A stretch of DNA of 16,448 bases, from positions 1-16,448 of the forward strand of contig JAVEEO010000434.1 in NCBI GenBank assembly GCA_030840415.1. The letters run 5' to 3'. The notes beneath the pieces were generated by a model. The model did no database searches. It was given only the letters and a program-made list of their open reading frames with translations, and was not told the origin of the DNA. This DNA comes from Pseudonocardiales bacterium. Lineage in GTDB: Bacteria > Actinomycetota > Actinomycetes > Mycobacteriales > Jatrophihabitantaceae. Positions 5,282 through 16,448 of the stretch are shown one piece after another (position 1 is the stretch's first letter; each line of letters begins with the position of its first letter). The position numbers were made by a program, and so were the translations under genes.

Positions 5282-6847
5282 TTACGGGCAGGTCGGCTCC
5301 CCGGTCTGTGCCGGGACGCTGACGGCGTTCCAGGCGGCCTTGATGGTGTTGAAGTTGGTGCAGTTGCCGGGGGTGAGGTTCTTGGCGGCGTTCAGGGTGG
5401 CGATCCGGTACTTGGCGTAGGACATCCGGGAGGTCTTGGCCAGCATCGCGTTGTAGAAGATCTTGCCCACGGTCTGGATGCCGATGCCGGTCACCGTGGA
5501 GCCGTTGCAGGTCGGGCTGGCCGGGCCGTTGGTCGGGTTGCTGCCCTCGGCGGCCAGGTAGAACCAGTGGTTGCCGGGACCGGCCGCCGCGTGCGTCTCC
5601 ATGGTGTTGACCGACTTGGAGTAGCAGTTCGGGTCACCGGCCAGCGACGGGTTGTACATGTTGCGGATCGGGCCGGAGCCGACCAGGTTGATCTCCTCGC
5701 CGACGGTGTAGTCCGGCTCGTCGTAGGTGGCCGACTCGTTGGCGAAGCTCTCGGTCAGCGCGCCGAAGACGTCACCGGTGAACTCGGCGACGGCCGAGGA
5801 GCCGATGCCGCCCGGGGTGAAGTTGTCCACGGCGTGACCGAACTCGTGGCCCACCACGTCCAGGGAGGAGATCCAGTCACCGGCCTGGTTGTGGCCGATG
5901 GTGACCGACGAGCCGTTCCAGTACGCGTTGAGGTCGTTGAGGCCCATGTAGATCGGGAACCCGCCGCCGGAGCCGTTGATGCCGTTACGGCCGAGCCAGC
6001 TGCTGAGCATGCTCCACTCGTTCTTGAGGTCGAACAGGGCGTCCACGCAGCCGGTCTCGCGGTTGCTGCCCACGCCGTTGCCCCACACGTCGTCGGAGCC
6101 CGAGAGCACCGCCTTGGTGTCGTTGTCACGGCAGGAGACGTTCGAGCGGATCGGGTCGGTCATGGTCCAACTGGTGCTGGTCGGGTGGCTGGTGTCGATG
6201 GCCAGGGGGCTCGGGCCGTTCCACTTGCCGGTGCCAGATCCCTCCTGCACCTCGTCGAAGCTGTAGGCCAGCGCGCCGGTGGTGGCGTCGGTGAACACGT
6301 GCAGCTTGCTCGGGGTGGCGCCCGCGTGGCTGGAGACGACGGTCTCGTAGGCCAACTGCGGCGTGCCGTAGGCGAGCACGACCTGGCGGGTGCCGGCGAC
6401 CTTGTCCAGGGCCTTGTACTTGGCGTGCGCCCGGGCGGCTGCCGCGGCCTGGGCGGGGGTGCGGGTGGCGGCGGTGGACAGGTCGATCGCCTGGTCCTGG
6501 GCCACCGAGGTGGACAGCACCTGACCGGCGGAGTCGGTGACCACCACGAAGTCGCCGCCGACCACCGGCAGGCCCTTGTAGGTGCGGTCGTAGGGCACGT
6601 ACTGCAGGCCCTCGGGGGTGGAGATCACCTTGTGGGCGATGAAGGCGTCGTTCTGGCTGGCGTGCAGGGCGGCGGGCCTCGATGCGACCAGGCTGGCCGC
6701 CGACTGCGCGGCCAGCGCGCTGGGGGACGCCTTGGGTGAGGGTGCGGCGGTAGCCGAGCCGGTTGCCGTGATACCGGTGACGGCCAGGGCCGACATGCCG
6801 AGCAAGGCGACCGCTGTCGCGGTACGGCGACGAGGGGTTAGGGCCAT
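5282..6847 (-). CDS. Secreted M4-family (thermolysin-like) zinc metalloprotease preproenzyme
   Basis: The start is ATG 6847 (MALTPRRR...), chosen because GAAAGG lies 7 nt upstream and a classical export signal begins there: RRR n-region, hydrophobic AVALLGMSALAVTGI core and a likely cleavage near SATAAPSP. The 521-aa product has an FTP-like propeptide (~60-105), a PepSY-like segment (~120-185) and the M4 catalytic domain (~200-515). HEFGH (334-338) supplies two zinc His and the catalytic Glu335; AVAEFTGDVFG gives the third ligand Glu355; GNHWFYLAAEG carries His427, matching the transition-state His of thermolysin. The C-terminal helical domain is complete, ending at TAA 5282. It should be an extracellular neutral endopeptidase activated by propeptide removal. 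It stands alone, convergent to the PLD gene, with a likely promoter far upstream near 7123-7151. Confidence 0.95.
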   Translation of the reverse strand: MALTPRRRTATAVALLGMSALAVTGITATGSATAAPSPKASPSALAAQSAASLVASRPAALHASQNDAFIAHKVISTPEGLQYVPYDRTYKGLPVVGGDFVVVTDSAGQVLSTSVAQDQAIDLSTAATRTPAQAAAAARAHAKYKALDKVAGTRQVVLAYGTPQLAYETVVSSHAGATPSKLHVFTDATTGALAYSFDEVQEGSGTGKWNGPSPLAIDTSHPTSTSWTMTDPIRSNVSCRDNDTKAVLSGSDDVWGNGVGSNRETGCVDALFDLKNEWSMLSSWLGRNGINGSGGGFPIYMGLNDLNAYWNGSSVTIGHNQAGDWISSLDVVGHEFGHAVDNFTPGGIGSSAVAEFTGDVFGALTESFANESATYDEPDYTVGEEINLVGSGPIRNMYNPSLAGDPNCYSKSVNTMETHAAAGPGNHWFYLAAEGSNPTNGPASPTCNGSTVTGIGIQTVGKIFYNAMLAKTSRMSYAKYRIATLNAAKNLTPGNCTNFNTIKAAWNAVSVPAQTGEPTCP

Positions 6848-7122
6848 GAGCAGACCTTTCGTGACAGGCGAAGCTGGCCAGCGGCTGCCCGGTTCGGACA
6901 GCCTGATATCTGGGAAGGGTGCTGGGGTCTTCGTCTGGGGATGGGGGAGCAGGAGGACCTTCGAGTGCACCTCTCTCGTGCCGTGGTGCGCTCGCCTGCC
7001 CTGGCCTGGAGGCCCTGGCAGTGGACCAGCACCACATCCGATCGCCTGATCGAGCCGTGCCGGCTTTCTTGCGTCACGGCTCGGAGGCAGTCGGATGCGC
7101 TACAGATTCAGGTCGTGAGGCA

Positions 7123-7151
7123 CGATAAGAGGGGACAAAATGAAATGTCAA
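7123..7151 (-). promoter_or_regulatory. Candidate sigma-70-type promoter for the M4 protease
   Basis: On the minus strand TTGACA (7151-7146) is followed after 17 nt by TTATCG (7128-7123). The -35 is a perfect consensus with ideal spacing; the -10 is a weaker match. It points toward the protease gene, about 270 nt from its ATG. Confidence 0.45.
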
Positions 7152-7176
7152 TGATTTTCACATGATCTATTGACAT
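7145..7176. promoter_or_regulatory. 8-bp inverted repeat ATGTCAAT-N16-ATTGACAT, possible operator
   Basis: ATGTCAAT (7145-7152) and ATTGACAT (7169-7176) are perfect inverted copies separated by 16 nt in an AT-rich patch. Each arm contains TTGACA reading outward, so the dyad places back-to-back -35-like hexamers between divergent genes. The minus-strand one has a plausible -10; I see no matching -10 for the plus-strand one. It may be a regulator site, a divergent promoter core, or both. Confidence 0.4.
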
Positions 7177-7351
7177 GGGCCGCTGGCGGGTTGACGTCTG
7201 TTGGGGCTGCCAACGTCGGTCCACCGGCACCAGGAGCTGCCGCTCCTGCGGTGGAGATGCCGGTCGGTCGTCGGGTTCGTGGGAGCCATAGAGTCCACAG
7301 GTGGGGCCCTCCGTCGGCGGGCGCGAACCAGCAACCGAACGGAGCGAGGGA

Positions 7352-7855
7352 ATGGCGGACATCGTCGATTTGATCTACGCCGACCATGACTGGTTTCGGC
7401 GCCAGTTCTTCTACCTGGACTACGCCACCAGCGAGGGGGAGTTGGCGGCTGTGTGGGACGTGCTGGCGACCAGGTTGGACACCCACGCCGACGCCGAGGA
7501 GACGGTGTTCTACCCGGCACTGCTGAAGAGGGGCAAAGCCGGCGACCCCGAGGACGAGACCGAGGACGCGATCGAGGATCACAACAAGATTCGCGACGCG
7601 GTCGCCGAGGCCGGCAGGCACCGGGTGGGCACCGACGAGTGGTTCGAGGCGGTCGGCAAGGCCCGCACCGAGAACGGCGAGCATCTGGACGAGGAGGAGC
7701 GTGAGGCGCTCCCGGACTTCATCAAGAGCACCACACCCGAGCTCCGTCACCAATTGGCGATGGCGTGGCTTCAGTTCTATGCCGAGCACCAGGCCGGCGC
7801 CGGGGTGAACACCAAGAACAAGGACGCCGAGGAGTACATCGAGTCCAACAGTTGA
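7352..7855 (+). CDS. Hemerythrin-like HHE cation-binding domain protein
   Basis: ATG 7352 (MADIVDLIYADHD) is preferred over an in-frame GTG at 7301 because GGAG at 7341-7344 lies 7 nt upstream and the HHE domain begins right after it. The 167-aa protein is a single soluble four-helix domain with metal-ligand candidates His12 (ADHDWF), His45 and Glu49 (HADAE, followed by TVFYP), His77 (EDHN) and His111/Glu115 (EHLDEEE). The family binds a diiron centre and has roles in O2, NO or oxidative-stress sensing or iron handling; the exact role here is unknown. It is strongly acidic and has no signal peptide. It is monocistronic, divergent from the protease and convergent with arr. Confidence 0.9.
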   Translation: MADIVDLIYADHDWFRRQFFYLDYATSEGELAAVWDVLATRLDTHADAEETVFYPALLKRGKAGDPEDETEDAIEDHNKIRDAVAEAGRHRVGTDEWFEAVGKARTENGEHLDEEEREALPDFIKSTTPELRHQLAMAWLQFYAEHQAGAGVNTKNKDAEEYIESNS

Positions 7856-7860
7856 CCGCA

Positions 7861-7893
7861 CGCCTCGGCAATCGAAGGCGAGGCGGCGATTGC
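7861..7893. terminator. Interlocked inverted repeats downstream of the hemerythrin gene
   Basis: CGCCTCG (7861-7867) pairs with CGAGGCG (7879-7885), and GCAATCG (7868-7874) pairs with CGATTGC (7887-7893). The two perfect 7-bp stems interleave, so they are either alternative hairpins or a pseudoknot-like topology. The element starts 5 nt after the hemerythrin stop and sits 40 nt beyond the stop of the convergent arr gene. A bidirectional terminator is the simplest reading. Confidence 0.55.
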
Positions 7894-7933
7894 GCCACCG
7901 CCGCGGTGTCCGAAGCTCCGTCGTGCTCGGACC

Positions 7934-8356
7934 TCAATTGATGATTTCGCCACGCTCCCTCGAGAGAAGTGCTGCGAGGCGCTTCCGCCATGTCTCCAAC
8001 TGATCGGGTGTCAGCCGCGTCCACTTGGTGATCTCACCTGTGACCCGCAGTGGGGCGCTACTGCGGTACGAGCGGGTGGGGTTACCGGGGAACCTCTTGT
8101 CGGTCACGTTCGGATCGTTCTCGAACGCCCCAGTTGGCTCTACCGCATAAACTCTCGGAACCGCTTCACCCTCCGCGAGTTCTGCGGCGATCTCCGCAGC
8201 GAGGCCGGCTCCATCAACGAGTGCGGTGAAGTAGATGTGGTTCATGACGATCTCGGGACGGTAGTTCGACGGGCGGCCCGCGGTGAGGAAGTCACCCACG
8301 TTGAGGTCCGCGATCGTGCCATGGAAGAACGGGCCCTCATCGAGCGGTCTGGACAC
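7934..8356 (-). CDS. arr: NAD(+)-rifampin ADP-ribosyltransferase
   Basis: The start is GTG 8356 (MSRPLDEGPFFHGT): AGAAGGGA lies 6 nt upstream and the resulting 140 aa matches the compact Arr family (about 140-150 aa). Diagnostic segments are present in order: GPFFHGT, LNVGDFLTAGRPSNY, MNHIYFTAL, RVYAVEPTGAFENDPNVTDK and RFPGNPTRSYRS. Arr transfers ADP-ribose from NAD+ to the rifamycin ansa-chain hydroxyl and so inactivates rifampin; it acts in the cytoplasm as a single domain. An upstream in-frame extension to 8509 has no family likeness. The gene is monocistronic and convergent with the hemerythrin gene. Such genes are common on actinobacterial chromosomes, so this need not be acquired resistance. 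Confidence 0.95.
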   Translation of the reverse strand: MSRPLDEGPFFHGTIADLNVGDFLTAGRPSNYRPEIVMNHIYFTALVDGAGLAAEIAAELAEGEAVPRVYAVEPTGAFENDPNVTDKRFPGNPTRSYRSSAPLRVTGEITKWTRLTPDQLETWRKRLAALLSRERGEIIN

Positions 8357-8687
8357 CTGAAATCCCTTCTGCCTACCTGAGTGCACGCGAGTGTGACGCA
8401 CCAGTTGGGCCTTGCCGCAAGCCCCCTCCGGCGCCTTATCCTGAAGCTGGAAGGACGCCGCGAGCCGTCGCTGGGACAACCACTCCGCCGCAGTACCGGG
8501 GCAGGTCATCGGTGTCAGTCACCGGGCTCACCGCCGAGCGACAGAATTCCGCACGCCACTAGGAGCGGGTCACCGATCAGCTGCTGTCGACCGGGATGAG
8601 TCCAGACTCCTGGGCCTCACCGAAGGCGTATCGCGAGCGCTGCGTCAAGCAGATTCGGCGGCGGCGTGCGAGGGCTACGGTGATCGC
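8357..8687. other. 331-nt intergenic region, arr to MBL-fold gene
   Basis: This divergent spacer should hold promoters for arr (-) and the MBL-fold gene (+), but I see no consensus promoter, hairpin or credible small gene in it. Open frames here are short and unlike known families. Confidence 0.5.
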
Positions 8688-9752
8688 ATGTGCGACTCGG
8701 ACGCAGGATCCGCCGGCATGCAGCTCTCGTCGCCCCGTCCGGCGGCCGGTGCTGCCGTTGATCCGATCACCCTCGATCAAGTTGACGAGGTAAGGGTTAC
8801 CACGCTGGTCGACAACACGTTCGACGCCCTGCTCCCTGATGACGAGCGGACCCGGCGCGTTTCGTTCGGCGCTGGGACGATGGCAGCGCCGCAGTTCGAG
8901 GGCCGGGCGACGGCCGTCGGGCTGGTCGCCGAGCATGGCTTCTCGACGCTGGTTTCGGTACGGCGCGGCACATCAACGACCACGTTGCTGTTCGACACCG
9001 GCCTTTCGCCCGGTGCGATGGTCACCAACGCCGACCGGTTGGGCGTCGACCTCGGCGACGTCCAAGCGGTGGTGCTGAGCCACGGCCATTTCGACCACGC
9101 CGGCGGCCTGGCCGGACTGATCGACCGCGGCGGCGCACGTCGCCTGCCGATGGTGGTGCATCCGCTGGTGTGGACCCGACGTCGGATCGCTGTGCCTGGT
9201 CAGGACGTGTTCGAGCTGCCGACCCTGAGCAGGCGCGCGCTCGCGCACGAGGGGATCGAGGTCGTCGAGCGGCGGGTGCCCTCCCTGCTGGTGGACGGCG
9301 CCGTACTGATCACCGGCGAGATCGATCGCACCACCGAGTTCGAACGGGGGATGCCACCGTCGCACCAGGCCCTGGTCAACGGCGAGTGGCAGCACGACCC
9401 GGTGGTGCTGGACGATCAGGCGCTGGTGGTGCATGTGCGCGGACGCGGGCTGCTGGTACTGACTGGCTGTGGTCACGCCGGCGCTGTGAACATCGTCCGG
9501 CATGCTCAGCGGCTAACCGGAGTCTCGCGGCTGCATGCGCTGATCGGTGGACTGCACCTTAGTGGGCCAGCATTCGAGCCGATCATCAGCCCGACCGTGG
9601 CTGCCCTCACCGCGGCGGCGCCCAATCTCATTGTTCCGGGCCACTGCACCGGCTGGCGGGCGCAGCACGCGCTGGCCGCAGCGCTGCCCGACGCCTGGGT
9701 GCAGGGCAGCAGCGGAACCACCTACCGGATGAGTGCACCGGCAGCGGCATGA
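8688..9752 (+). CDS. Metallo-beta-lactamase-fold hydrolase, COG1237 type
   Basis: The frame is opened at ATG 8688; ATG 8718, with AGGA 9 nt upstream, is an equally plausible start because the first ~35 residues look non-conserved. The 354-aa protein has the MBL signature SHGHFDHAGGL (His132, His134, Asp136, His137), then LTGCGHAGAVNI (His263), an IGGLHL segment and VPGHCTGW (His319). This order, with GC-H-AG and GHCTG, is typical of proteins annotated as 7,8-dihydropterin-6-methyl-4-(ribofuranosyl)aminobenzene 5'-phosphate synthase-like, a family of cytoplasmic hydrolases with poorly defined bacterial roles. It is not a classical beta-lactamase: no signal peptide and the wrong family. It is monocistronic and convergent with the Shedu gene. 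Confidence 0.85.
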   Translation: MCDSDAGSAGMQLSSPRPAAGAAVDPITLDQVDEVRVTTLVDNTFDALLPDDERTRRVSFGAGTMAAPQFEGRATAVGLVAEHGFSTLVSVRRGTSTTTLLFDTGLSPGAMVTNADRLGVDLGDVQAVVLSHGHFDHAGGLAGLIDRGGARRLPMVVHPLVWTRRRIAVPGQDVFELPTLSRRALAHEGIEVVERRVPSLLVDGAVLITGEIDRTTEFERGMPPSHQALVNGEWQHDPVVLDDQALVVHVRGRGLLVLTGCGHAGAVNIVRHAQRLTGVSRLHALIGGLHLSGPAFEPIISPTVAALTAAAPNLIVPGHCTGWRAQHALAAALPDAWVQGSSGTTYRMSAPAAA

Positions 9753-9874
9753 CCGTGTGCCATCGGATCGGCGATGTGCGAGCGCAACACTAACCGCATC
9801 GGAACCGTCGGATGCTCGGACAACTTTGCGTCGATACGGTGGCGACCGACGCGGCTGATACGCGGTGTCAATTT

Positions 9875-9903
9875 ACAACGTTGTGCACCTGTTTGGGACA
9901 GCT
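9875..9903 (+). repeat. Left copy of an imperfect direct repeat flanking the Shedu segment
   Basis: The stretch ACAACGTTGTGCACCTGTTT with GG following matches 12021-12042 with two mismatches, and both copies continue to CAGCT after a 2-nt indel. In this copy ACAACGTTGT is a perfect 10-bp palindrome next to GTGCAC. The pair brackets about 2.1 kb that includes the Shedu gene, so it may mark ends of an inserted or rearranged segment. Confidence 0.45.
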
Positions 9904-9932
9904 TTCGAACCCTTGACAGACGGTGCTGAACA

Positions 9933-11168
9933 CTACGCCGCCGAAGCCACGAGCCAATCAGCACGAGCTAGCAGTTCGTCGAAGGTAATCACTTCAGGCT
10001 CGCTCAAGTGTCTGCGGTACAGCTCGAAGGAGCGGACCTTGTCGAGGTGGTGGCCTCCCGACTCACCGATGAACTCGCTCAGCTGGCCGATGATCAGGTA
10101 GGACTTGGGCCGAAGCAGGTAGCCGACCTCTCCCAGTCGTTCTGCGCCATCTGCGTCGAGTCGTATGAGCCTTTCCCCGATCTTGGTGGCCGCTCGATGG
10201 ACGGTTCCCTGAACCTGAGCCACTCCTCCTGCTAGGTGAGTAGACGGAGCCCAACAACCCGGCCTGTAGTAGTCCCTGCCGAGTAAATCGGTGCGGTGGG
10301 TCTTGATCTCTGCAAACACCATCGAGCGGATACGCCCGGATGTCTGCAGAAGGGCGTCAGACCGCTTCCCGACGCCCGCTACCGAGGAGCCGGCCACGAC
10401 TTGCTCGAGCTTAGACTCGTCCCAGGAAGTCAGGAGCTGGCCGCTCAAACTCATACCCAAGATCCAGGGATTAGACTCAAAGAACTGCTGCCAGACGGCC
10501 TCTGCTCGCTGTCCTGGCGCCGCCGCCCGGGATTCGTCGAAGTAGTCGTCGTCCTCCAGGTAACGATGGAATCGCTCCACCTCCTCCCGTCGATGAGCAA
10601 GAGCGATGACATCCTCGGCAGTTCTATCCTTGATGATCAGCTCTCGGAAGTGCGTACGATCTCGACGGTAGGCCGCATCAAGAGCATTAGGATCCTCGAA
10701 CACCTGTCGAATCAAAGAGTCATCCACGCGAACGGTCGGCGCGCCAGCTACCGGTATCTGGTCGAGACTCTTGAGTAGGTCGACCAACCGTTGCACCTGG
10801 GGAGCCTTCAGGTTGAGGGCGACCTTGATCGTTCCTGTTGAACCGTTGGCCGGAACCTTCTGTATCCACAACTCCTTGACCCGGCCTGCCTCCCTCGCCA
10901 CGAGCAACTTCACCTGGACCCGCCCACCAGGGGACTCATCGATGAGCCACTCGTTCCCATCCAGCGTCAGTGTGGTCTCGGTCTCGGAGTCGAACACTTT
11001 TTGGATGAACCGAGCAGGTTGGCCGAAGTCGGACGACGCTGGCCTATCAATCAAGAAGCTTCGGGACGCATAAACTTGGTCCGGCAGTCGTCCCTGCGCG
11101 TAGGTCGTCTCGGTAACGCTTTCACCGAAACCATCGGTACTTACGAACGGATCCTGGGGTTCTGTCAT
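9933..11168 (-). CDS. Shedu-family antiphage nuclease (DUF4263, SduA-like)
   Basis: The start is set at ATG 11168 (MTEPQDPF), giving 411 aa; the ribosome site there is weak, and GTG 11276 (447 aa, six nt downstream of a GATACT -10-like hexamer) could be a leaderless start. Residues ~40-210 form a beta-rich N-terminal region (SRSFLIDRP, TLDGNEWLID, VKELWIQKV). The C-terminal ~235-400 is the DUF4263 PD-(D/E)xK domain: QQFFESNPWILG, then Asp271 (RSDALL), Glu287-x-Lys289 (FAEIKTHRTDLL), followed by CWAPSTHLAGGVAQVQ and GYLLRPKSYLIIG. Shedu is a single-protein antiphage system whose SduA nuclease defends against phage. There are no partner genes on its strand. It ends convergent to the MBL-fold gene and opens the accessory region. 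Family assignment is by motif reading only. Confidence 0.88.
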   Translation of the reverse strand: MTEPQDPFVSTDGFGESVTETTYAQGRLPDQVYASRSFLIDRPASSDFGQPARFIQKVFDSETETTLTLDGNEWLIDESPGGRVQVKLLVAREAGRVKELWIQKVPANGSTGTIKVALNLKAPQVQRLVDLLKSLDQIPVAGAPTVRVDDSLIRQVFEDPNALDAAYRRDRTHFRELIIKDRTAEDVIALAHRREEVERFHRYLEDDDYFDESRAAAPGQRAEAVWQQFFESNPWILGMSLSGQLLTSWDESKLEQVVAGSSVAGVGKRSDALLQTSGRIRSMVFAEIKTHRTDLLGRDYYRPGCWAPSTHLAGGVAQVQGTVHRAATKIGERLIRLDADGAERLGEVGYLLRPKSYLIIGQLSEFIGESGGHHLDKVRSFELYRRHLSEPEVITFDELLARADWLVASAA

Positions 11169-11552
11169 CTCGCGTCCACGCTCTCGGCTGACCTGGCATT
11201 CGAGTATCCGCCATGTGTTCGGAAGATCAGCGCCATCCACGTTCCCGCGAGTCACGGCCTTGGCGTTGGTGGGCACCCCGCAGTATCCACTACGAAATTA
11301 GCGATCCGGCCAAGCTGGAGGGCACGGGGAAGTTCGTGGACGGCCAGGCGCTGACGCCGGAGGGCACGTTCGTCCGGTTGCTCGACTGCCACGCTATGCG
11401 TCGTCTGCTGGCGGTTTCCCGCCGTCGCATCCAGGACCGGCAGGTTATTTAACCACGATCGATGGCTGAGTCTTCCTGGCGCTGACCGATGGCGCCGGGG
11501 TCGATGCCGCACTCGAATGTGTCGGGACCGACCGAGTCCGGCCCATGACAAG

Positions 11553-11623
11553 TGCCGTCGGGAGGAATCGAACCTTCCGCAACGTCCAACGACGGCGAGG
11601 GGCGCCCGCCGGTCACCGACGGC
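11553..11623 (-). pseudogene. tRNA-3'-end-like fragment, possible attachment-site scar
   Basis: On the minus strand the 3' end reads GGTTCGATTCCTCC then CGACGGC and A. This is a T-arm (GAAGG/CCTCC, one mismatch, with the invariant GTTCGATTC) plus a 7-nt acceptor strand and discriminator. Its complement GCCGTCG occurs twice upstream, at 11590-11596 and at 11617-11623; the latter gives a 71-nt span, near tRNA length. The intervening sequence has no convincing D-arm or anticodon arm, so this is not an intact tRNA. Integrases that target tRNA 3' ends leave such pieces. Confidence 0.4.
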
Positions 11624-12019
11624 CCGTTCGCCAGGCCCGGGCGGCAAGCCGATCTACGAGTGGCTGGAACTGCGGCCCTTCCTCGGCTCGGCTCCCACCG
11701 TCGCGGACCCCCGTCCGCACTTCGTGGGTAATCGTGCCCTGCGGCAAACGGGCGGAAGGCAGCGCGAGCAGCCTAGTGAAGCTGGTGCGATCATCTGTAG
11801 GGGTGTGCATCGCCGACTTAGCCTGGTCTGGCGGACAACGACACGGCCGCAGACGACGGGGTGAACAAGCTGAACCGACGCCTGCCGAATGGCTATCGTG
11901 TGATGAACCACCCCGGGGCTGCCGATGTTGAGCGTGGAGCGTTCGCTTAACCCCCATCGGGGCCAGCATCCGACGGTGGATCAACCAGTCGACCACTGCT
12001 AGCAATGTCATGGCGGAGC

Positions 12020-12047
12020 TACAACCTTGTGCACCTGTTCGGCAGCT
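12020..12047 (+). repeat. Right copy of the imperfect direct repeat
   Basis: TACAACCTTGTGCACCTGTT followed by CGG and CAGCT matches the copy at 9874-9903 with two substitutions and one 2-nt gap. It lies about 185 nt before the two-gene cassette. Confidence 0.45.
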
Positions 12048-12230
12048 AACTCCGTACGACGATAGTTCGGGACGACGGCAAGATCAGTAACGACGCGCGC
12101 AGTCCGATTGTCTAGCTCGGAGTTCCGTCACGCGATGGATCATGGGCCATGCTGATGAGTCGCCCCGAGCTGTGCCCTGGAATAATGGGCCGAGAGCGGG
12201 TGCCGAGTTGGCGACAGTAGGGGCTATGCC

Positions 12231-13109
12231 ATGACTATGGAGAACGGGATCGGGCTTGTACGCAAGCCCGTTGGTGTCAGCCGGCGGGTCTTTCTTTCGC
12301 ATGGACCGAACGTCCAGATAGCTCCTATTCGCAACGTGTTGCACTCGTTGGGGTGGCTGACCTCTGAAGGAACAGACGTCGACCTTGCCGACTCCTTAGC
12401 CGAGGAACTTCTGGCAAGACTTACGGCGTCCGAGGTCGTTCTAGTCGTAACCGATGCGGAAGATGTTTCTAATGGTGTCTTGGTAGAGGCGGGAGCGGCG
12501 CTGGGTTTGGGGAAGCCACTTGGCGTCTTGGACATGGGGCGGGACCAACGGGGAGGCCCTAGCCCTCTGAGCATTTGGACTAACAATCCAACCCTTTACG
12601 CTCGCGCCTACGATACGGTCGCCATTCGCCAGGAGCTTCAGAGCTTCCTTGATTCACTTGTCAAAAGGAGCCACCAGCCTGTAACGGCAAATCGAGACCG
12701 AAGTATGCCGGCGCTTCAGGGCGTCATGGGCATCACGGATGAGTCGATTTCGCGTGTAGCGAATGCCTTCGCTGCCGTGGGTGGAACGGTCCAGGCGACC
12801 GCCTCGTCCTTGCGTGCACCCGACCTACTGGTGACTCTGCCGGGATTCGACTTACCATTTTCGCCGGTGGCGGTAGAAGTGCTCGGTCGTAAAGGTCGTG
12901 TGAGACGCGCGATTGATCGTTTAGAGGAAGCATTAACCGAACGTGACTTAAGGCTCGGAGTGCTAGTGACACTAGAGCCTGTGGAGAACTCCTCTGCCGT
13001 TACCCCCCTAGGCATCATAGTTGTCCCTTTGCGGTTGTTGGAAGAGCAGGCCGAGGTGGTCGTTCGACAGGTGCGAGATGCACGAAACCGAATTGTGCAT
13101 GGGGCCTAG
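12231..13109 (+). CDS. TIR/nucleoside-deoxyribosyltransferase-like N-terminal domain fused to a PD-(D/E)xK-like C-terminal region
   Basis: ATG 12231 has AGGGG 7 nt upstream. The 292-aa protein has an N-terminal Rossmann-like domain (~18-105): RRVFLSHGP (strand 1 and turn), a SEVVLVVTD strand (~67-74), and NGVLVEAGAALGLGKP (81-96), where Glu86 sits where TIR-like and nucleoside 2-deoxyribosyltransferase-like proteins carry a catalytic Glu. After a linker, residues ~175-290 resemble a PD-(D/E)xK fold: PDLLV (Asp198), VAVEVLGRKG (Glu216), then a helix RAIDRLEEAL and strand LGVLVTL. The usual lysine of ExK is Leu218, so nuclease activity is doubtful. The expected role is NAD+ or nucleotide sensing or cleavage coupled to DNA recognition; this is inference. 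It contains several TTA codons and lower G+C than its neighbours, suggesting acquisition. Its TAG lies 2 nt before the next ATG. Confidence 0.75.
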   Translation: MTMENGIGLVRKPVGVSRRVFLSHGPNVQIAPIRNVLHSLGWLTSEGTDVDLADSLAEELLARLTASEVVLVVTDAEDVSNGVLVEAGAALGLGKPLGVLDMGRDQRGGPSPLSIWTNNPTLYARAYDTVAIRQELQSFLDSLVKRSHQPVTANRDRSMPALQGVMGITDESISRVANAFAAVGGTVQATASSLRAPDLLVTLPGFDLPFSPVAVEVLGRKGRVRRAIDRLEEALTERDLRLGVLVTLEPVENSSAVTPLGIIVVPLRLLEEQAEVVVRQVRDARNRIVHGA

Positions 13110-13111
13110 GT

Positions 13112-13648
13112 ATGACCGCCTACGATCCCAAGCTTCTCGCCAAACTCAATGACGCATGCTCGTCGGCTAAGAGCAATGCCCAGAAAGGGGCTGCACTCGC
13201 GGACTTGGTTGAGTACGTCCTTAGCGAGGTCCCGGGACTTAGTGTCCGAGAACGAAGCAGTGTGGACCCATCGGGTGGCGCGGAATATGATTTCTTATTT
13301 AACAACGTTTGGTTTGATAGTCATCTGCCGCATGAGGTCGGGGTAATACTGTTCGTAGAGTGTAAGAATGAGAAACGTAAGATAAGTGCGGAGCAAGTCC
13401 GGGACTTCTCAGTTAAGCTGCGCGATCGTGGCAAACCACTTGGCTTGATGGTCTCCTCGGCAGGATTGGCCGGTCGAGGGCGGACACATGCGCATGACGC
13501 TATCATTAAGGAACTCGCACAAGGGCGCTATATTGTCGTTCTATTGCGGTCAGAGTTGGCGGCTCTGAGCCAGCCTGAAGAATTTGTTGCTCTCTTTACC
13601 GAGCGCTTAGCCGAACTAGTAGGCCAAGGTCAGTACACATCGATATAG
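13112..13648 (+). CDS. Small Mrr-like PD-(D/E)xK restriction-endonuclease-fold protein
   Basis: ATG 13112 begins 2 nt after the upstream stop; GGGG at 13101-13104 lies inside the end of the upstream gene, so translation is coupled. The 178-aa protein reads as a minimal type II/IV restriction-endonuclease fold. An N-terminal helix KGAALADLVEYVL carries Glu34; EYDFLFNN carries Asp60; ILFVECKNEKRKIS carries Glu83-x-Lys85; EQVRDFSVKLRDRG gives the following helix; PLGLMVSSAGLAGRG is the next strand and turn, as in Mrr-like enzymes. All key residues are present, so a metal-dependent DNase is likely. There is no DNA-recognition domain; specificity may come from the partner upstream. TTA codons (for example at residue 62) and modest G+C mark it, like the partner, as foreign to the surrounding genome. 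Confidence 0.8.
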   Translation: MTAYDPKLLAKLNDACSSAKSNAQKGAALADLVEYVLSEVPGLSVRERSSVDPSGGAEYDFLFNNVWFDSHLPHEVGVILFVECKNEKRKISAEQVRDFSVKLRDRGKPLGLMVSSAGLAGRGRTHAHDAIIKELAQGRYIVVLLRSELAALSQPEEFVALFTERLAELVGQGQYTSI

Positions 13649-13774
13649 GGTGCTGCAATCGAATGGTCGGTCGTCGCGCTCCGTTTGCCGTAGCGCTGGA
13701 CACCGATCCGTCGAGCCTTTCCATGAGCCACTTATGGCGCTGCCGGAGAGACGTTGACGTACTTACAGCACTTG

Positions 13775-13847
<73 letters not shown>

Positions 13848-13858
13848 CTACAACATCC

Positions 13859-13879
13859 GTGCCCGCTGGCGGCGGGCAC
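13859..13879. other. 8-bp GC-rich hairpin 5' of tRNA-Lys
   Basis: GTGCCCGC (13859-13866) and GCGGGCAC (13872-13879) form a perfect stem with loop TGGCG. On the minus strand it lies 12 nt before the mature tRNA 5' end, so it may be a leader hairpin trimmed during tRNA maturation. On the plus strand it could stop transcription heading toward the riboswitch. Confidence 0.45.
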
Positions 13880-13887
13880 GAGACAGA

Positions 13888-13893
13888 ACCTTA
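13888..13893 (-). promoter_or_regulatory. Candidate -10 hexamer for tRNA-Lys
   Basis: TAAGGT on the minus strand (13893-13888) lies about 40 nt upstream of the mature tRNA 5' end and fits the actinobacterial TANNNT -10. No clean -35 is evident. The predicted transcript leader would contain the hairpin at 13859-13879. Confidence 0.35.
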
Positions 13894-14008
13894 GCAGAGC
13901 CCGCCGGGCGCCTTGAAATCCGGCAGGCCACCAGGGTGGCGCGAAGCTGTCCACAGGTGGCAAACCCCGCGTTGACCGCCCCCAACCCCTGTGGTTGGCT
14001 GGTCGCAA

Positions 14009-14165
14009 CGACGGCAGTGAAGGAAGTCCGGTGCGAATCCGGCGCGGTCCCGCCACTGTCACCGAGGAGCAGACCCTGCTACATCACGGCCTCGCGGCTG
14101 GAAGATGGGGCGAGCGCGCCCGGCACCACCGGGCAGATTCGGAAGCCAGGATACTTCGGCCGTCG
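14009..14165 (+). promoter_or_regulatory. Cobalamin (adenosylcobalamin-type) riboswitch
   Basis: The element contains the hallmark core GTGCGAATCCGGCGCGGTCCCGCCACTG (14031-14058), where the conserved GCCACTG box is seen, a variable region, and the B12-box-like GGAAGCCAGGATAC (14141-14154). CGACGGC (14009-14015) pairs with GCCGTCG (14159-14165) to close the outer P1 stem. The strand and position, directly upstream of cobD and cobQ, fit feedback control of cobalamin synthesis. No classical terminator follows, so control of translation initiation is more likely. The 5' limit may extend to about 13995. Confidence 0.93.
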
Positions 14166-14192
14166 GAACAGCCAAGGGCGTGGACACCCGAC

Positions 14193-14198
14193 GGAGGT
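14193..14198 (+). promoter_or_regulatory. Strong Shine-Dalgarno GGAGGT for the leader ORF
   Basis: GGAGGT lies 8 nt upstream of ATG 14207 and 59 nt upstream of the cobD ATG. It is the only good ribosome site between riboswitch and cobD. Its first two bases also belong to CCGACGG (14188-14194), which is complementary to CCGTCGG (14160-14166) at the 3' edge of the aptamer. Confidence 0.7.
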
Positions 14199-14206
14199 CA
14201 CGAACG

Positions 14207-14257
14207 ATGACGGCAGCCCGGCGCATCCGCCGACGCGCCACCAGCCGCAGGCGTTAG
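14207..14257 (+). CDS. 16-codon Arg-rich leader ORF abutting cobD
   Basis: ATG 14207 with an ideal Shine-Dalgarno opens MTAARRIRRRATSRRR (8 of 16 residues are Arg) and stops at TAG 14255-14257, directly followed by the cobD ATG at 14258. The two frames are the same, so only the TAG separates them. Either this is a regulatory leader peptide that couples translation to cobD, or it is the original N-terminus of cobD interrupted by a nonsense codon. I favour coupling because cobD proper begins with a normal CobD N-terminus and has no ribosome site of its own. Confidence 0.55.
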   Translation: MTAARRIRRRATSRRR

Positions 14258-15217
14258 ATGTCACGGCTTCCGGTCGCAATCGGTCTGACTCTCGGTGTGG
14301 TGGCCGACGAACTGCTCGGTGACCCGCGGCGCGGCCATCCGGTCGCCGGTTTCGGCGCCGCCGCCGCTGCCCTGGAACGCGTGCTCTATCGCGACAGCAG
14401 GACAGCCGGCGGCCAGTACACGGCCGCCTGCGTGCTGCCGGTGCTGGCAACCGCCGCCCTGGTCGAGCGCCGGACCGCCCAGCACCCCGCGCTCAGAGCC
14501 ATCGCCGTCGCCGCCGCCACCTGGACCGTGGTCGGTGGCCGCAGCCTGCGCCGGATCGGCGGCGAACTGGCCACCGCCCTGACCGACGGCGACACCGAGG
14601 CCGCCCGGGCGAGGATCCCCAGCCTGTGCGGCCGCGACCCTGCCCGGCTGGACGCCGACGGCCTGGCCCGGGCCACCGTGGAATCGGTCGCCGAGAACAC
14701 CTCCGACTCGGTCACCGGCCCGCTGTTCTGGGGCGCCGTCGCCGGCCTGCCCGGCCTGCTCGGCTACCGCGCGATCAATACCCTGGACGCCATGGTCGGG
14801 CACCGCTCAGCTCGCTACGCCCGGTTCGGCACCGCCGCCGCCCGCCTCGACGACCTCGCCAATCTCGTCCCGTCCCGGCTGACCGCTGCCCTCACCGTGG
14901 CCCTGGCCGGCCGGGTCGGCGGATCACCGGCCCGGGCCTACCGTGCCTGGCGCTCGGACGCGGCAGCCCATCCGAGCCCGAACGCCGGCCAGTGTGAGGC
15001 CGCGGTGGCCGGTGCGCTGGGCGTCAGCCTGGGCGGCCCGACCAGCTACCGCAGCCACACCGAACACCGCCCGATCCTGGGGGGCGGCCGGAGCCCACAG
15101 CCGGACGACATCGTGCGCGCGACCACGCTCAGCCACCTGGTGCAGTACGCCACCCTGGCCGCGCTGCTGGCCGCCCTGCACCTGCAGGAAGTCCTGCGCC
15201 GGAACGGGCGCGCGTGA
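14258..15217 (+). CDS. cobD: Adenosylcobinamide-phosphate synthase (CobD/CbiB)
   Basis: The 319-aa integral membrane protein matches CobD/CbiB: an N-terminal [17 protein letters not shown] motif, [19 protein letters not shown], then [13 protein letters not shown] in the middle, and a C-terminal segment with [18 protein letters not shown]. It attaches the aminopropanol(-phosphate) arm to adenosylcobyric acid to form adenosylcobinamide (phosphate), a late step of coenzyme B12 synthesis. Several hydrophobic Ala/Leu/Val segments fit membrane helices. ATG 14258 is used because the family N-terminus begins there; it lacks its own Shine-Dalgarno and immediately follows the leader-ORF TAG. The TGA overlaps the cobQ GTG (GTGA, 4-nt overlap). 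Expression should be lowered by B12 through the upstream riboswitch. Confidence 0.95.
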
Positions 15218-16448
15218 GGGGCGCGCTGCTGGTCGCCGGTGCCAGTTCGGACGCCGGCAAGAGCCTGTTCACCGCGGGCCTGTGCCGGTTGCTGGCCCGC
15301 CGGGGCGTGTCGGTAGCGCCGTTCAAGGCCCAGAACATGTCCAACAACTCCGCGGTGACCGCCGACGGCGGCGAGATCGGCCGTGCCCAAGCCCTGCAGG
15401 CCCAGGCCTGCGGCATCGAGGCCAGCGTGCTGATGAACCCGGTGCTGCTCAAGCCGGGCAGCGACCGGCGCTCGCACGTCCTGCTGCACGGCCGGCCCTA
15501 CGCCGAGGCCGGCGCACTGGACTACCGGCAGCTCAAAGCCACCCTGCGCAAGGAGGTGCTGGCCAGCTTCGACGAGCTGCGCCGGCGCTACGACGTGGTG
15601 ATCTGCGAGGGTGCCGGCAGCCCCGCCGAGATCAACCTGCGCGAGAGCGACCTGGCCAACATGTGGCTGGCCGACCAGCGCGATCTGCCCACCGTGGTGA
15701 TCGGCGACATCGACCGGGGTGGCCTGTTCGCCGCGCTGTACGGCACCCTCGCGCTGCTCGGCGAGCGCGACCAGTCGCTGATCGCCGGCTTCGTGGTCAA
15801 CAAGTTCCGCGGCGACGACCGGCTGCTGGCACCGGGCCTGGACATGCTCACCAACCTGACCGGACGCCCGGTGCTCGGGGTGCTGCCCTGGCTGCCGGAT
15901 CTGCGACTGGACGCCGAGGACTCGCTGTCCACGCCGGCCGCCCTGGACGGTGGTGAGCCGGTCGGTACCGAGCGGTTGTCGGTGGCCGCGATCCGGCTGC
16001 CGCGCACCTCCAACTCCACCGATGTCGACGCCCTCGGCGCCGAACCCGGCGTCACGGTGCGCTGGACCGCCTCACCCGCCGAGGTGGCCGCCGCCGACCT
16101 GGTGGTGCTGCCCGGCAGCCGCGCGACGGTGGCCGACCTGGCCTGGCTGCGCGAGCAGGGACTGGCCGCCGCGATCACCGAACGCGCCCGGCGGGGGAGT
16201 CCGGTGCTCGGCATCTGCGGCGGCTACCAGATGCTGGCCGCCAGCATCGACGACGACATCGAATCCGGCGCCGGCACCGTGCCGGGGCTCGGGTTGCTGC
16301 CGGTGACGGTGCGCTTCGCCGTCGACAAGATCCTGGCCCGGCCCACCGGCATCGCCTACGGCGCCGAGGTCAGCACCGGCTACGAGATCCACCACGGGGT
16401 CGTGTCGCCACTCCCGGGCGCCGGCGAATCCTTTCTCGACGGCTACCG
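15214..16448 (+). CDS. cobQ: Cobyric acid synthase (CobQ), 3' partial
   Basis: GTG 15214 overlaps the cobD stop by 4 nt, and the frame stays open to the window end (411 full codons of a family usually near 490-500 aa). The N-terminal synthetase domain shows [20 protein letters not shown] (nucleotide-binding loop), [42 protein letters not shown] and [11 protein letters not shown], all CobQ hallmarks that separate it from CobB. The glutamine-amidotransferase domain begins around residue 250 and includes [15 protein letters not shown] and [11 protein letters not shown] with nucleophile Cys335; GYEIHHG follows. The enzyme amidates four side chains of adenosylcobyrinic acid a,c-diamide using Gln and ATP. 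It is translationally coupled with cobD and shares its riboswitch. The C-terminal catalytic His/Glu pair probably lies beyond the window. Confidence 0.96.

Follow-up and report, generated by a model that had tools for sequence, protein, structure and literature searches.

Introduction

NDT/TIR-type glycosidases and PD-(D/E)xK nucleases recur in bacterial immunity, and Retron-Eco1, for example, reportedly relies on an NDT-like effector in phage defence and is said to form NAD+-hydrolysing filaments. In the available text of PMC13174449, the DUF4062 domain of Swarozyc is described as a TIR-like NADase fold with distant similarity to NDT that acts in defence, while the available text of PMC9122126 describes STAND NTPases in which TIR, SIR2 and Mrr_cat serve interchangeably as the effector domain. 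A precedent for a bare catalytic subunit relying on its partner is provided by the small subunit of R.BspD6I, according to the available text of PMC6261011. A stable two-gene pairing of both kinds of protein was not found described, and we here analyse a candidate for such a pair in a stretch of 16,448 nucleotides (hereafter the window, meaning the whole stretch) from a Pseudonocardiales bacterium (assembly GCA_030840415.1, contig JAVEEO010000434.1). It comprises gene 1 (12231..13109, + strand, 292 aa), which according to its open reading frame (ORF), Pfam and PDB profiles and a structure model combines an NDT/TIR-like head with a PD-(D/E)xK-fold domain and an RNxxxHG tail, and gene 2 (13112..13648, + strand, 178 aa), a predicted stand-alone PD-(D/E)xK (Mrr-like) nuclease. 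The pair is probably a rare, mobile and as yet undescribed defence module.

Recurrence of the gene pair

Analysis of the window revealed both ORFs where a first-pass annotation, made by a model from the sequence alone, had placed a coupled two-gene cassette, with 2 nt between the stop of gene 1 and the start of gene 2 on the same strand. Gene 1 was located directly upstream of gene 2, again on the same strand, at 12/12 distinct intact stand-alone gene 2 loci with visible context (the window, L001, L002, L003, L005, L040, L041, L042, L043, L089, L090 and L091), and the spacing between the two genes lay between −14 nt (an overlap) and +2 nt (a gap), computed for 9/12 loci. The hosts comprise a Clostridiales metagenome-assembled genome (L001), an Agrobacterium plasmid (L002), a Sphingomonas plasmid (L003), an IMG/VR contig (L005) and, with seven loci, the class of the window. 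A neighbourhood confined to close relatives, which the annotation had named as grounds for refutation, is thus not what we found, as distant bacteria carry the intact arrangement as well. No match to a gene 1 or gene 2 profile at E ≤ 0.1 occurred among 1922 ORF pieces taken from 12 regions elsewhere in six pair-holding genomes (one of them with a broken form). With several homologues exceeding Pfam cut-offs and the two-gene order kept throughout, recurrence beyond chance is confirmed at the level of sequence comparison.

Searches of genome samples, which overlap one another, revealed that stand-alone gene 2 is rare, occurring in about 1% of the sampled genomes. Profiles of gene 2 found any match in 10/296 genomes of the phylum sample, the sole strong stand-alone copy being the window's own, and in 11/394 genomes of the class sample, where full-length copies were present in the window, G818, G681 and G747 (two loci) and the rest, apart from a broken gene 2 in G507 and a remnant in G582, were weaker Mrr-like matches. 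The order of G818 gave 3/35 genomes and none new, while the order of the window gave 6/397, with full-length copies in the window, G1250, G1233 and G1391 and the other two within longer proteins. For the Clostridiales genome, matches were obtained in 3/348 genomes of its phylum (a stand-alone copy in G387, the carrier of L001, and two inside long proteins) and in 4/113 of its class (the G387 copy again, plus three that are not accompanied by gene 1). A reverse search with the gene 1 profile matched 3/298 genomes, all of them known pairs; as no more than 8 candidates are scored in each genome and G1391, either outside the sample or missed, was not reported, solo copies could escape this search.

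Searches beyond these samples returned little. Gene 1 alone recovered only itself from the protein collection (7997 candidates scored), and a five-row gene 1 profile added a single 295-aa protein, which is probably that of L001. Window gene 1 had no match among plasmids and none among phages, the gene 2 of L001 matched only the L008 record (cut) among phages, and viral contigs yielded one locus, found in two scans, with two further scans empty. At the G507 locus both genes are broken, and the gene 2 remnants in G582 and G330 are not accompanied by gene 1.

Distances among gene 1 sequences correlate with those among gene 2 sequences (r 0.91, Mantel p 2e-4, 9 of 12 pairs). Gene 1 identity was equal to or lower than gene 2 identity in 36/36 comparisons (at two decimals), gene 1 also being the harder of the two to align, and we infer that this lower identity would suit a partner that faces phage.

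Domain architecture of gene 2 and gene 1

The fold of gene 2 together with its D...ExK motif places it among PD-(D/E)xK proteins, and the presumed catalytic motif D60...E83-C-K85 (13289..13366, + strand), defined by an alignment of homologues, is highly constrained: D60 and E83 were found in 11/11 aligned sequences and K85 in 10/11. With 15.8 bits, the window protein stays under the Mrr_cat (PF04471) cut-off of 21 in Pfam, as does L001 (19.5), whereas the gene 2 products of L002, L003 and L005 pass. A PDB sequence search with gene 2 returned nothing at E ≤ 0.001, and no DNA-recognition domain is visible in the protein. Related nuclease domains were also observed at the C-terminus of longer proteins, namely a 331-aa protein on a Kozakia plasmid that is followed by SIR2_2 and HerA genes (L007:2337-6413) and places this nuclease type beside a different NAD-related domain, a 664-aa archaeal protein from Halorussus (L006:6465-8459) with no family assigned to its N-terminal part, and the proteins of L046:7611-11844 and L092:5664-7226, of which the former adjoins a protein with Mrr_cat and nSTAND1 domains.

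For gene 1, the motifs VFLSHGP and NGVLVEAGAALGLGKP quoted in the first-pass annotation are present, as is ECK in gene 2, and profile and structure comparisons agree with its reading of a TIR/NDT-like head followed by a minimal PD-(D/E)xK protein in gene 2. The predicted Rossmann NDT/TIR-like domain spans residues 17-147 (12279..12671, + strand), and its assignment follows from the Rossmann fold, seen in profile and structure comparisons, together with a Glu aligned with that of CtNDT; in the profile alignment, with residue counting, Glu86 (codon 12486..12488, + strand) corresponds to Glu88 of CtNDT. This Glu is kept in 12/13 gene 1 sequences, one of these being a broken copy. In Pfam, window gene 1 scored 22.2 bits against Nuc_deoxyrib_tr (PF05014), under the cut-off of 28.8, which is passed by L003 (31.5) and L005 (31.1) and narrowly failed by L001 (28.4), while the Agrobacterium gene 1 passed the PF10137 cut-off (25.6 versus 24.7 bits). 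The best PDB sequence-profile match of gene 1 was PycTIR 8jsj (E 8.9e-6), and nucleotide enzymes of the DNPH1 and NDT types fit the head no worse than TIRs do.

Residues 170-272 (12738..13046, + strand) form a putative alpha-beta3-alpha-beta PD-(D/E)xK-like domain, as judged from secondary structure and hhalign. Alignment of this domain with the gene 2 family gave an hhalign probability of 91% (E 1.1e-6) and a score of 44.9, compared with a best score of 24.6 among 100 column shuffles. By profile comparison, the second domain of gene 1 is therefore homologous to the gene 2 nuclease and often degenerate. The nuclease-like fold that had been proposed for the C-terminal part thus stands, with the reservation that the ExK motif is degenerate here: in the window, Asp and Glu are kept and EVL takes the place of ExK, with loss of the lysine, so that gene 2 is the likely cutter.

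Gene 1 ends in the RNRIVHG tail (residues 285-291, 13083..13103, + strand), delimited by motif conservation, and RNxxxH is kept in 11/12 intact gene 1 sequences. The HEPN RNase motif is given in the available text of PMC3710099 as Rx4-6H with a polar residue after the R, a pattern into which this tail falls. An HEPN RNase was rejected as an explanation: in a structure model of moderate confidence the motif lies in a terminal helix (274-290) behind the PD-(D/E)xK-like domain, and Pfam gave no HEPN family. The homology between the two nuclease folds, the degeneracy of the gene 1 copy and the RNxxxHG tail were all absent from the first reading.

Two further observations concern gene 1 copies. As annotated, the Agrobacterium gene 1 starts without 37 upstream open residues (L002:7022-7133) that align with the first strand of its relatives. 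Three Rhizobium plasmids (NZ_CP064188, NZ_CP121642 and NZ_CP092346; H16-H18) carry an unannotated stretch in which no more than 52-60 residues from the N-terminus of gene 1 are matched, and these may be decayed copies.

Genomic island and defence-gene neighbours

The pair and a Shedu gene share an island of low G+C content, about 5.9 kb long, which ends at tRNA-Lys(CTT) (13774..13847, − strand, predicted by ARAGORN). Both features had been named by the first-pass annotation and were recovered, Shedu SduA at 9933..11276 (− strand; PADLOC SduA E 1.4e-133, Pfam SduA_C 108.9 bits) and the tRNA adjoining the cassette. Its compositional argument held as well: the G+C content of gene 1 (57.3%) and gene 2 (52.5%) is below that of the cobD-like gene on the other side of the tRNA (75.5%), and TTA codons occur five times in gene 1 and twice in gene 2, whereas five of the seven other window genes counted have none and two have one.

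For the edges of the island, regions around the cobD-like gene from five same-genus genomes were compared. Homology of G002 and G003 to the window (~85%) begins at 13772-13773, the 3' end of tRNA-Lys, and extends right to about 16.4 kb, which puts the cassette within a variable island at the tRNA 3' end. G002 aligns at 7258-7912 and 13773-16423, and the window's 5.9 kb in between, in whose place G002 carries about 2.1 kb of different DNA, define the island (7913..13772), which holds arr, a metallo-beta-lactamase-fold gene, Shedu, gene 1 and gene 2. G003 showed no match to the window in 12.5 kb past the tRNA, and its tRNA-Lys flank (L064:3493-16001) carries ABC transporter, AMP-binding, carrier and condensation-domain genes; the site thus holds different cargo in relatives. 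The remaining three genomes are uninformative on the edge, as the G001 contig stops near the tRNA and homology of G004 and G007 begins only within the cobD-like gene. Of the other island genes, the first encodes an NAD(+)--rifampin ADP-ribosyltransferase (7934-8509, − strand; NF033144, 139.8 bits versus a cut-off of 130) and the second a metallo-beta-lactamase-fold protein (8688-9752, + strand; PF00753, 50.5 bits) that lies far under beta-lactamase cut-offs among the best 25 of 47 NCBIfam families.

Strong PADLOC matches beside the pair were Shedu in the window, LmuA and LmuB in L001, HamA, HamB and PDC-S01 in L002 and Avs3a in L042, and Shedu, Lamassu, Hachiman or Avs3 adjoins 4/10 loci examined. 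The underlying scan covered 77 ORFs at 10 loci, namely the broken L045 and nine of the 12 intact loci (L089-L091 not being among them), at PADLOC E ≤ 1e-40 and, among the best 25 of 29 families, gave nine component names, which in addition to those above include PDC-S67 and a CARF6 model; as the scan does not assign these two to individual proteins, there may be eight or nine distinct proteins. Neighbour ORFs came from a crude caller, with HamA of L002, a known match, added by hand, HamB end-trimmed and window positions 15214-16446 left out. The same scan of 97 ORFs from 12 control regions of six pair-bearing genomes, all of them contig starts and none from plasmids, gave one match, PDC-S11. 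Between the pair and Lamassu in L001, an ORF (L001:4064-4903) matches the first 157 of 278 positions of PDC-S35, and the ORF after it may be the rest of PDC-S35.

Proposed mechanism and alternative explanations

The recurrent gene order, the two constrained predicted active sites, the nuclease-fold homology between gene 1 and gene 2 and the island location are established by comparison, and the initial interpretation as a defence pair is supported on this basis. We give about even chances to the pair being a mobile defence module, with gene 1 both docking and gating gene 2. The two proteins would assemble into a heteromeric complex through their related PD-(D/E)xK domains, with gene 2 as the DNA-cutting subunit and the often degenerate nuclease domain of gene 1 docking gene 2 and restraining or positioning it. 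The NDT/TIR head with its presumed catalytic Glu may serve, together with the RNxxxHG tail, as a switch, in that infection would alter a nucleotide or NAD-like ligand bound or cleaved by the head, and gene 2 would then degrade phage or host DNA. A more specific version, which we regard as possible but rather doubtful, is that a nucleotide/NAD glycosidase head, with its own RNxxxHG tail completing the active or ligand site, acts allosterically through a pseudo-nuclease docking domain to license the bare nuclease homologous to that domain, in what would be an undescribed type of defence.

Several observations weigh against the docking and gating module. The ExK motif of gene 1 is intact in 7/13 sequences, so that in some lineages this domain may itself cut DNA. 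In L089 (G1250; gene 1 at 6348-7703, − strand) both the NDT Glu and the RNxxxHG tail are lost, although the pair is kept and the nuclease motif is intact (EAK); NDT catalysis would thus be dispensable there, with the reservation that an insertion makes the alignment less sure in that stretch. That Glu and tail are lost together in L089 hints at a link between tail and head. The gene 1 structure model is of moderate confidence (pLDDT 70.8, pTM 0.45). Two relatives of gene 2 in the protein collection, P0003 (52%) and P0004 (45%), have no visible context and stand outside the 12/12 count, and gene 2-like remnants without a whole gene 1 occur in L044, L019 and L008, the last being a cut, unverified phage-scaffold record in which, by eye, a stretch just before the gene 2 start resembles the gene 1 C-terminus, with no gene 1 profile match. 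The proposed enrichment beside known defence genes, finally, was borne out only in part: by gene, Fisher p was 0.005 with nine counted and 0.011 without the hand-added ORF, whereas by locus (4/10 loci with a named system versus 1/12 control regions) p was 0.14 and not significant. As the genes of one defence system are not independent in the gene-level count, and in view of the locus-level result and the limits of the control, the enrichment of defence neighbours near the pair is suggestive only.

The main rival reverses the roles of the favoured mechanism and assumes an abortive NADase system like SPARTA or Swarozyc, in which killing falls to the NDT/TIR head, through NAD+ depletion, while gene 2 and the nuclease-fold domain of gene 1 serve to detect or bind the DNA of the invader. 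We consider this fairly unlikely, because the nuclease triad present in 10/11 gene 2 sequences would be superfluous in a pure DNA sensor, DNPH1 and NDT enzymes fit the head no less well than TIRs, and L089 lacks the Glu. A system restricting modified nucleotides or modified DNA, with a DNPH1/MilB-like head recognising or removing unusual (e.g. hydroxymethylated) nucleotides and the nuclease pair cutting the DNA, appears improbable to us. That the genes are small and coupled, and are carried by an island and by plasmids, would fit a toxin-antitoxin or other selfish maintenance pair; this explanation is more improbable still, as both proteins have enzyme-like folds, neither is antitoxin-like, and the window proteins matched no toxin-antitoxin family in either Pfam or NCBIfam, nor did four homologous pairs in Pfam. 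Least credible is a nucleotide salvage or housekeeping gene that stands beside a restriction-like gene by chance, for which one homologue annotated as nucleoside 2-deoxyribosyltransferase may speak; housekeeping salvage is disfavoured by the rarity of stand-alone gene 2, its variable island in the window and the pairing at every one of the 12 loci.

If the docking and gating module holds, nucleotide or NAD sensing would be coupled directly to DNA destruction via a pseudo-enzyme scaffold, which would provide a compact model, and a function would be assigned to genes annotated as hypothetical protein, restriction endonuclease or nucleoside 2-deoxyribosyltransferase.

Comparison with known systems

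Neither window gene had a family at E ≤ 1 in PADLOC-DB 2.0.0 or a match above cut-off in Pfam and NCBIfam, so that neither a named system nor a housekeeping family, a match to which the first-pass annotation had set as grounds for refutation, emerged. The homologues match generic TIR, NDT and Mrr models only, in PADLOC solely the TIR effector, PycTIR, PDC-S02 and PDC-S35 models (best E 2.8e-7). Searches of the open-licence literature brought up no account of the pair or of its combination of domains, which is not proof of absence. Several known types were rejected from a scan of the five island genes (short ORFs at ~11.3-12.2 kb lay outside it), which gave no methyltransferase for restriction-modification, no reverse transcriptase or Argonaute for a retron or SPARTA, and no PADLOC match to the ThsA partner for Thoeris.

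Retron-Eco1 reportedly has the NDT-like domain in common with gene 1, while the reverse transcriptase is missing from the scanned island genes. The TIR effectors of Pycsar and CBASS (PF10137; PycTIR 8jsj) share the Rossmann glycosidase-like head with gene 1; here, the same island scan gave no cyclase, and the head shares its polypeptide with a nuclease-fold domain and has a nuclease as partner. Compared with NDT, DNPH1 and MilB, gene 1 differs as a two-domain protein in an operon with a nuclease, and in the profile alignment it has no acid opposite position 62 of CtNDT (wild-type Asp according to the entry title). The main text of PMC13174449 makes no mention of a nuclease for Swarozyc DUF4062, and gene 1 has no DUF4062 match in Pfam at E ≤ 1. 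Type IV Mrr-like restriction enzymes are approached by the gene 2 products of L002, L003 and L005, which pass Mrr_cat, whereas window gene 2 is under the cut-off and a bare catalytic domain. In contrast to R.BspD6I, a heterodimeric restriction endonuclease, gene 1 carries an NDT/TIR head, with no DNA-recognition domain seen. STAND NTPases likewise employ NAD-type and Mrr-type defence effectors, and according to the available text of PMC9122126 these replace each other on one protein, whereas here both kinds occur together and no STAND domain was found. The pair is thus built of parts of known kinds, joined in a pairing that appears to be undescribed.
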